Shown: positions 44,501 to 47,500 of the stretch, in pieces | How the letters are laid out: the number at the start of each line of letters is the position of its first letter | Position numbering within the stretch: position 1 is the first letter of the stretch | NCBI RefSeq assembly: GCF_026151205.1 | Contig: NC_087073.1 | Span: forward strand, 9,810,411-9,874,410 | Length of the DNA: 64,000 nucleotides | From: Bolinopsis microptera | Lineage: Eukaryota > Ctenophora > Tentaculata > Lobata > Bolinopsidae | Direction of reading: 5' to 3' | The notes under the pieces: generated by a model | What the model saw: the letters and a program-made list of their open reading frames with translations, nothing else | Databases searched by the model: none | Told to the model about the DNA's origin: nothing | Translations under genes and position numbers: made by a program

Positions 44501-47500
44501 ATTTGTTTGAGTTTTAATTTTAGGCGCAACGTCTTAATCAAAATATTAAATGAAAGAAAAGATCAAAGATTTAAATTCCCAGAAGATTATTTACAACCCT
44601 GTCAAAACTGTGTTCGTTTACAACAAACTTAAGCCAAGTGGACAGTAAACCTACTCCTCTCATGTTGAGATGAAGCCAATCATGGTATAGAAGTTCATTA
44701 CAGGATCTAAAGTCTCGAGTTAAAAAGTCTGAGAAACAGTCTAAGAACACGCAATTATTATTTAGGCATAAGTCTTTAAGTAGAATATTAAAATCTAGAA
44801 CATTCTTTGCTATGTAGGAATATAAACACTTAATAGGAAGACAACATTGGATAATTATAATTGCAGCGGGAAATAACTGCTTAGTGGTGTCAATTAAGTC
44901 ATTAAGATACTTCCTAAGGAACTGAACCCCATACTTAGAATGTTTTATGTCATTTGTACCAACACTCAATATAATCTTTTCAATATCGTCAGCTTCTGCA
45001 GCTGCATGAGTTTTATGAAAATGCTGAATATTTTCAGTGATGTCTCTAATTTTTGCACCACTTTGGGACACATTGATTACTTTCCTTCCCCGGAATCCCA
45101 ACTTATTTGTCCGTACGAATTTTGTCATTGACGTACCAAACAGGACAGTGGTTTTCCTGCTCTTCGGTTTTCTTGGAGCATTTCGGTAGTAGAGGGTTGG
45201 TGTTGAGGTGGTGGTGGGCGGCATAGGAATTGTAGTGAAGACATTCTGCTCCCTGACTACATTTGTATCTGTCTTCGGTATCTGGCAGCGAAAAGATAAG
45301 CTATACCGAGTCTCCTTAGCTGATCTCTCTGCACGAACCTTGTGAAGACAATATTCCTGACACCCCGGTTTCATAATATACAAACTACAGTCCTTTGGGG
45401 TGATATGGCATTTACTGTTACATCGCTTATCCCCATTTTCTGGAATTATGTCGAGGGTCCTCTCAGCTCCAAATGAAACTACATAAATACCTTGCGACTG
45501 GTCAAGAGACACCTCGTCGTCGTTGTGGTACCTAGTTGCACAAGAACCAGACTTGTACATGCTTGCTAGGCATGAGTTTAGCTTGCAGCCAAACTTGGAG
45601 TTGATATCATGCATAAGCTCTGATATCCCAGGATAATTTAAAATATCGATTGGCTCCTTAGTCGTGGTGTGTCCATTTGAGGAAGACCATACATATTCTT
45701 CTCCAGTGGAAGTGAGCCACTTTGTGGCAGTTTTCACAGCAGTTTGCTTGGCCATAAGTGTTTCAAGTTCAGACATCAACGTGCCATGTTGAACACTCTT
45801 GTTTTGAACAAAATCTGAATGCAACTCCAAGAAGTCCTCGCATTTCACAGAATCCCTCTTAAGTTTCATGACATTCTCAACACTGGCCTTAAGAGCTTTC
45901 AGCTCTTTTAATGAAAACGAGTTTAAAACATTGGTAACAGAATTCAGATCCATAGTGAAGGAAAGAGGGAGGAGAAGATGGCGGTGAGGGAGGAGAAAAT
46001 GGCGAAGTCAATACTGTAGCCCAGGAAATAGATGCGTTGCTTAGGATACAAACGGTCACGTCATAGTCTCTTCTATCGCTTTGACATTGGGACCTAAAAT
46101 TATTTGTTATATAGTGGTGTTGAAAGTATTAAATTAAATTAAATTACTTATTAAATTAATTATCGAATTACTAAAACTAAAATGACGGTTATAGTCCGTT
46201 AAACCCTTGTTTCCGCTGTTAGTGGAGCTGCCTGAATGTTGATGAGAGTGAATCTGCAAGGCCGTATTTTTTCAAAAAGAAACTGTCGAAAGCTGTTGAC
46301 TGATGCGGTGTAGATGAAGACGTTTGAAACGTAGTTGATAAGTATCAACCGGCCACAGATAATGATACTGATCTTGGTTTTTGTGTTTGCCTGGTCAGCG
46401 TGCAGGTACTTGTTGCCCAGAAAGTTCATCACAATGTGAGGACTGTAGGTCAGACTGTAAACCAGTGCTACCAGTAAAACTGCCAGGACTCCCTGCCATC
46501 TTATTGTCTCTCGACCTCGTTTGGCAATCTGATGAGCTGAAGTTATCAACCCGATTGTGGACACTAGGACTATTATATTCGGGACCATCGCCACTAAAAA
46601 TGAAATAGCTGGCAGGAGGTATTTCCAAACAGGATCCGAGAAATCGTACATGCAGGCTATTCGAACGTTATCGTAGTATATGCTGTCGGGGTTGACGATG
46701 ATGAGGATTGCCGCAGGGATCACGGACCAAGCCCAAACAACTGCTGCGAGAAGATGACCTCTCTTCCGCTCCCAGAGCTGGGCACGAAATGGTTTTTGTA
46801 AGCTTACAAACTTACAGGTTGTCAGGGCACAGATATGGCAAACACTGCTATGTCCACAAATCAATATCAAGTAGAAATGGACCTTGCAGAAGGTGTATCC
46901 GAAGGGCCAATAATCCACCATAGTTGCTATGGTTGCTGGTATCATTAGCACGATGGTACTGGCCAGATCGGACACAGCCAAGTGTTGAATAAGGGTCCCA
47001 GTTACCTTGTCCAATCGGAATGCGTTGTACTTGATGCTGCCCATTAGAATGAGAGTGTTGCCTGTCACTCCGAGCAAGATAAGAACTAGACCAAATGCTA
47101 TTGAAGTGTACTTTACGGGAGTGTAGTATTCCGTGTTCAGATAGAGGTCGGAGAGGGTGTTGTTCTTCATCAACATGTCCAGTTCGTGAAAAATAATTTC
47201 GTTGAATGAGCTGAATATCAATCTTCAAGAACATAAGGAATATTGTGCGAAATAGATAGTGGTCTCAGATCAATCTAAGGTGTTAATTCAAAATTGGGAG
47301 AGCTGGTAGCCGCCTTTACCGGGCAAGCTGTGCTAATGCTTTTAACCGAGCAAATAATAATAGTCTATTAATACATTCTCTGACGGTTGTACTTGATAAA
47401 TAAGGGTAAATAAGTGGATTTCTTGGAAACCATTTGATCTCGAAAAGAACTATTACAAAAGGCTCTACTAATGGCTGAAAGGTAGGCGCTAAGCTGTGTC

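Follow-up and report, generated by a model that had tools for sequence, protein, structure and literature searches.

A ctenophore LINE whose ORF1 joins an AlkB-type dioxygenase to an SGNH esterase and many of whose copies begin with host spliced leaders

The window analyzed here is a stretch of 64,000 nucleotides (nt) of the ctenophore Bolinopsis microptera (RefSeq assembly GCF_026151205.1, contig NC_087073.1, positions 9,810,411 to 9,874,410). It contains a non-long-terminal-repeat (non-LTR) retrotransposon, a long interspersed nuclear element (LINE), whose first open reading frame (ORF1) appears to encode two fused enzymes. Among the ORFs listed for 40-52 kb of the window, we recover the unbroken 460-amino-acid (aa) frame at 44571..45953 on which the original prediction was built, followed after 97 nt by an ORF2 with endonuclease (EN) and reverse transcriptase (RT) domains. 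The coordinates had been given correctly but without a strand; ORF1 lies on the minus strand, and plus-strand frame 1 across the same interval contains many stops. The element is laid out as follows.

46094..46133, minus strand: 5' end derived from the host spliced leader (SL), 40 nt, ending in TTTTAG; the first few leader nt are missing in the window copy
45954..46093, minus strand: 5' untranslated region (UTR), beginning GTCCCAATG, common to the window-family copies
44571..45953, minus strand: ORF1, 460 aa (ORF listing)
45276..45845, minus strand: AlkB domain, ALKBH2/3-type 2-oxoglutarate (2OG)-Fe(II) dioxygenase, residues 37-226 of ORF1 (sequence, profile, and structure matches; residue conservation)
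45162..45275, minus strand: linker, residues 227-264, mostly predicted disorder (231-262) and fast-evolving
44610..45161, minus strand: SGNH/GDSL esterase domain, residues 265-448 (Pfam, profile, and structure matches)
40958..44473, minus strand: ORF2, 1171 aa (ORF listing)
43172..43852, minus strand: ORF2 endonuclease, residues 208-434 (PF03372/PF14529)
41720..42352, minus strand: ORF2 reverse transcriptase, residues 708-918 (PF00078, 1.2e-28)
40539..40957, minus strand: 3' UTR, terminating in AATAAA(A)n

Judged by sequence comparison, the match of ORF1 to the AlkB and SGNH families exceeds chance. Against the PDB, phmmer finds ALKBH3 (2.5e-9) and the zebrafish L2 ORF1 esterase (2.4e-4), and a profile search finds ALKBH3 at 2.3e-19 and the ZfL2-1 esterase at 2.3e-12. 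ALKBH3 and ALKBH2 are the best matches of the AlkB half both in sequence and in structure (Foldseek on the predicted structure), with identities over the domain of 23-28% to ALKBH3 and about 20% to ALKBH2. The predicted structure contains the double-stranded beta-helix proposed for residues 80-224, and the second half combines an SGNH/GDSL fold with the Ser/Gly/Asn/His blocks and a Pfam match (PF13472, 3.7e-11). The AlkB model PF13532 (2OG-FeII_Oxy_2) is matched by 37 of 48 aligned proteins, as well as by two related elements of the same genome (L037 of family B and L041 of family D, described below). An NCBIfam search of ORF1 returned no match.

The residues singled out by the prediction (H143, D145, H204, R216, R222, S275, G299, GTND 332-335, D425, and H428) all lie at the positions claimed for them. 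Searching 5.8 billion proteins yielded 98 relatives of ORF1, and a profile search 102, the weakest being a fish protein with RVT_1 and SGNH domains (P0102, Cirrhinus mrigala; 4.2e-5, 57% query coverage). We excluded this protein, and site counts cover the other 101 homologs wherever their sequence extends past the site. Random substitution at the catalytic residues, which would have spoken against an enzyme, is not what we observe: the catalytic positions of the AlkB half are near-invariant (H143 94/94, D145 94/94, E147 94/94, H204 97/97, R216 97/98, R222 98/98), and in the SGNH half S275 is kept in 98/100, G299 in 100/100, N334 in 99/100, and H428 in 95/96. Mean column identity to the window protein is 0.475 in the AlkB part and 0.506 in the SGNH part vs 0.206 in the linker. 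Both searches gather candidates via shared short words, so that missing host ALKBH proteins in the results carry no meaning. As to a viral origin, the 31 matches that a single SGNH-derived peptide pattern had in viral contigs included no relative, a result of little weight for AlkB.

Within the genome (264.65 Mb, 232 contigs) we scored at least 94 ORF1 matches, of which 25 span the full length (query 1-459 or 1-460) without a stop, at 95-100% identity. Thirteen of the contigs are chromosome-sized, and two ctenophores have n = 13; this agreement, the leader, and the Mnemiopsis homologs of the second lineage (both below) fit a ctenophore host. To judge by these near-identical copies, spread across several chromosomes, the element has been recently mobile. 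All 17 larger loci show an open ORF1 (432-460 aa) followed by long same-strand frames, with ORF2 a single unbroken frame of 1171-1184 aa in 12 of them and a gap of 82-123 nt between ORF1 and ORF2 where ORF2 is unbroken. These loci take in three further families, B, C, and D, with 28-30% identity to the window element in ORF1 and 45-50% in ORF2. Element ends are reproducible across copies, the 3' end being AATAAA(A)n. The frame thus behaves as a LINE ORF1, with dispersed copies, an EN-RT ORF2 downstream, and an A-rich 3' end. That it is instead a captured host gene, a chance neighbor, or an assembly artifact beside a LINE has nothing in its favor beyond the rarity of the domain combination, and we rejected this reading, to which we give practically no credence, on the basis of the 25 stop-free copies, the long same-strand frames behind ORF1 at 17/17 loci, and the reproducible ends.

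Between the sister families B and C, each represented by one copy and separated by a synonymous distance of 0.76, both ORF1 halves are under purifying selection: the ratio of nonsynonymous to synonymous substitution rates (dN/dS) is 0.19 for AlkB, 0.10 for SGNH, 0.49 for the linker, and 0.11 for ORF2; in comparisons with the window family synonymous sites are saturated. Among the 25 full-length copies (300 pairs), dN/dS is 0.17 for the N-terminal part, 0.71 for AlkB, 1.09 for the linker, and 0.22 for SGNH. The suggestion that selection acts on both halves holds between families; for AlkB among young copies this test does not show it. Taken together, sequence, profile, predicted structure, conservation across 101 homologs, the 25 full-length copies, and sister-family dN/dS support a LINE ORF1 in which an AlkB dioxygenase is fused to an SGNH esterase. 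The prediction was right about this fusion; it had missed the spread of AlkB through the genome and the SL at the 5' end.

The genome contains at least 151 PF13532 matches (587 first candidates, 150 scored); the 150 matches listed all exceed the curated threshold, their frames range from 142 to 3388 aa in length, and runs of equal scores among them are consistent with repeats. Host genes may be included, e.g., in the few highest-ranking matches. One locus, L059, represents a second LINE lineage, in which a 639-aa ORF1 (AlkB, 5.4e-23; SGNH, 3e-6 and below cut-off) precedes an 857-aa RT frame. Its RT is 30% identical to that of the window over 482 columns, and its ORF1 21% across parts of both domains. 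We found 72 homologs of this ORF1, eight of them named proteins of the ctenophore Mnemiopsis leidyi, with the iron and 2OG ligands kept in 70 or 71 of 72 (the remainder being gaps) and the SGNH Ser in 71/72, Asn in 70/72, and His in 69/69. Genome-wide, when the 150 AlkB places were compared with 88 of the 150 places listed for SGNH, 12 pairs of the two domains proved to be no more than 2.5 kb apart, four in the order AlkB-SGNH and eight in the order SGNH-AlkB. Both domains have an identical open-frame length in 4/4 and 6/8 of these, respectively, so a single frame should encode both. AlkB also occurs in very long open frames of 2225-3388 aa (L061 at C12:8337400-8339400, C9:15866686, C3:14443087, and C12:2468326), in several of which SGNH lies upstream of AlkB; the L061 piece is rich in Pro/Ala-rich and tandem repeats.

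The 5' ends point to a further link with the host. In some families only the RT part can be aligned with window-family DNA, at about 65%; their 40-nt 5' ends are 94-98% identical to that of the window family. This shared 5' sequence, leader a (AGTTTTAATACTTTCAACACTACTATATAACAAATAATTTGAG), is similar along its length, by eye, to the Hormiphora californensis SL ending AATTTGAG, as given in the part of PMC8527503 used here. The 5' UTR start is present at 25 of 30 window-family loci, joined to leader a in 16, to a truncated leader a in two, and to a different sequence, leader c, in three; the 11 loci of families B-D comprise eight with leader a, two with leader b, and one with none. Different leaders are thus joined to the same element base within one family. 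A tandem array on C5, with at least 20 units mostly 428 bp apart, has leader c as its repeated part; the exon ends in ..GAG and a GTAAG donor comes next, the arrangement expected for SL RNA genes. Rfam has no match to the array unit up to E = 1. In the second lineage, leader a (L059) and leader c (L060) are both joined at ..GAG to the element start GTATGACCAAA, and the junction at L019 likewise falls exactly at the ..GAG leader-exon end. The variety of leaders on one element base and the ..GAG junctions of lineage 2 indicate that element RNAs were, at least at times, trans-spliced before reverse transcription.

Leader-like places number 1597 in the genome. At L048, L050, and L055 on C1, leader a adjoins a different repeat (CCTGAAGATGGCGTTGACG...), and head-to-head leader pairs occur at L048 and L050.

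As for the putative CR1/L2-like character of ORF2, a ranking of solved structures for the window RT puts R2 and L1 RTs first. CR1/L2 elements have short tandem repeats, not poly(A), at the 3' end; copies of the window element end in AATAAA(A)n. At least two hydrophobic, membrane-helix-like stretches precede the endonuclease in ORF2 of the window (N-terminal 180 residues), L037, L039, and L041, and dN/dS of this region is 0.23 between families B and C (L037 vs L039). Such an N terminus would fit a membrane-bound ribonucleoprotein (RNP).

In the surroundings of the element, a rhodopsin-type G protein-coupled receptor (GPCR) frame (46199..47221, minus strand; PF00001, 4.5e-23) runs in the same direction as the LINE and stops about 65 nt before the LINE begins; the LINE may lie within the 3' UTR of that gene. 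We found no convincing target-site duplication at the window copy, and a possible one of 13 nt at L042. A 1707-aa Gypsy-like polyprotein with RT, RNase H, an integrase zinc-binding domain, and an in-frame tandem repeat occupies 50980..56103 (minus strand). Elsewhere in the genome, a near-perfect 60-bp tandem repeat lies downstream of a family-B copy (L037, 8096-8641). At C10:7598938-7649606, C12:1364478-1415146, C13:15319248-15369916, and C5:9278761-9293088, decayed relatives of ORF1 appear again and again with the same scores and spacings, a pattern suggestive of recent duplication of blocks some 50 kb or larger, or of a giant mobile element.

We consider it reasonably probable that this retrotransposon makes an ORF1 protein (ORF1p) with two enzymatic activities, an ALKBH2/3-like dioxygenase and an SGNH esterase joined by a flexible linker, and that its RNA is capped by way of the SL. 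ORF1p would coat the element RNA in cis, and its AlkB half would oxidatively strip Watson-Crick-face methyls (1-methyladenine [m1A] and 3-methylcytosine [m3C]) from that RNA or from nascent single-stranded cDNA, lesions that would otherwise stall the RT. The esterase half would dock the RNP on membranes or act on lipids, by analogy with ZfL2-1, while the element RNA would acquire its 5' end, and hence a cap, at least at times via SL trans-splicing like host mRNA. Both active sites are intact and kept by selection, which hints at an element equipped with a tool of its own to clean or protect its genetic copy. More broadly, and tentatively, with the chances somewhat below even, ctenophore LINEs as a group may have evolved an enzymatic ORF1p: AlkB and SGNH would occur together in one order in two or more distant LINE lineages, and in the reverse order in long frames, their activities coupled to keep RNA and cDNA readable on a membrane-associated RNP, with a host leader taken for the cap.

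Several observations weigh against the account of a two-enzyme ORF1p and a leader-capped RNA. We infer the substrate preference of the AlkB half from sequence likeness, and the demethylase/repair and membrane roles of ORF1p by analogy. The window ORF1 itself has no PF13532 match, and its hit to PF03171 (0.0043) is below cut-off. The AlkB value of 0.71 among the full-length copies gives no evidence of recent constraint, since these copies are young and carry few changes. In the SGNH half, the triad Asp D425 is kept in 80/97 homologs, replaced in 16/97, and in a gap in one (it is intact in the window copy and in 25/25 full-length copies); G299S occurs in 1/25 copies; and block I of lineage 2 reads SSS in place of GDS. 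Four of the 25 window-family copies with a 5' UTR start carry no leader, and among the 18 with leader a, 12 end in TTTTAG, five in TTTGAG, and one in TTTTTG. Fresh trans-splicing in every round is accordingly not the whole story.

The last point bears on whether the leader was instead acquired by RT template jumping, or is inherited as a changed part of the element, rather than added to each RNA by trans-splicing. Leaders at ten sampled other loci end in TTTGAG in 14 of 15 cases (one TTTGTTT), and the TTTTAG form is rare genome-wide (47 places vs 1191 for TTTGAG). Of the 47, 22 lie 5' of ORF1 matches at a distance of 141-454 nt, and 13 of the remaining 25 lie 5' of listed SGNH frames. The within-family variety of leaders and the exact ..GAG junctions in L019 and both lineage-2 copies argue the other way, and we regard this origin as a serious possibility that falls a little short of even chances. 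The TTTTAG ends may reflect a better splice acceptor, an inherited changed leader, or template jumping.

Different roles for the AlkB half must also be weighed. It could act as an eraser of the N6-methyladenosine (m6A) type, removing host regulatory marks to evade control instead of repairing m1A/m3C. The portion of PMC9289625 used here reports m6A demethylation in vitro by the AlkB protein of an orchid Ty3/Gypsy element, and Foldseek also matches ALKBH5 (E about 1e-8). By sequence, however, the half is ALKBH3/ALKBH2-like, ALKBH5 and FTO being absent from the profile search at E 0.01, and mammalian L1 mobility is suppressed by the m6A eraser ALKBH5 (PMC7873242, in part), so that m6A erasure need not benefit a LINE; we find this role unlikely. 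Alternatively, the fold could have been retained for nucleic-acid binding or packaging, or could act on protein or lipid, with no role in base demethylation. According to the portion of PMC3905857 used here, the zebrafish esterase-type ORF1p rearranges nucleic acids in vitro although it has no defined RNA-binding domains, and AlkB could supply the binding in the ctenophore protein. Mere binding would not explain iron ligands conserved in 94/94, 94/94, and 97/97 homologs together with the kept 2OG arginines, a ligand pattern that recurs in the 72 lineage-2 homologs, and we judge this explanation decidedly improbable.

LINE ORF1 proteins are usually regarded as RNA-coating scaffolds. An ORF1p with an invariant repair-type dioxygenase site would directly test whether RNA/cDNA base methylation limits retrotransposition, and would be a natural RNA-demethylation tool. 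With the AlkB-SGNH pair in distant lineages and leaders captured at their 5' ends, the copies also record which host leader their RNA bore.

The AlkB half has the HxDxE, H, and RxxxxxR motifs in common with human ALKBH3 and ALKBH2, which are stand-alone host repair enzymes. Among the titles and abstracts listed in our searches of openly licensed PMC papers, none describes an AlkB domain in a LINE; Repbase and Dfam were not searched. The esterase type (type IV) of ORF1 is described, in the part of Metcalfe and Casane used here (PMC4120745), from two exclusively vertebrate groups, at times with a zinc finger or leucine zipper; neither AlkB nor dioxygenase turned up in a term search of that article's main text. 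The window element likewise has an esterase domain in ORF1, but its host is a ctenophore and an AlkB domain is added. Zebrafish ZfL2-1 (PDB 4c1b; PMC3905857 and PMC4120745, in part) shares the SGNH domain in an ORF1 upstream of ORF2, and its ORF1p has measured hydrolysis and binding to negatively charged lipids (PMC3905857); it differs in its N-terminal coiled coil, with no AlkB domain described in the portion of that article used here. TET/JBP dioxygenases of fungal DNA transposons (PMC12730594, in part) are also 2OG/Fe(II) nucleic-acid dioxygenases of mobile elements, but of another family and carried by DNA transposons. In dinoflagellates, SL relics have similarly been fixed in DNA by retroposition (PMC12014239, in part), there in host retrogenes and here in autonomous LINEs. 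The nearest precedent, as far as the portion of PMC9289625 used here describes it, is the orchid Ty3/Gypsy AlkB ORF: it too is a dioxygenase borne by a retroelement, with RNA demethylase activity in vitro, but it is a separate ORF of an LTR element and a plant m6A-type eraser, whereas the ctenophore domain is ALKBH2/3-like, fused into a non-LTR ORF1, and present in several families.
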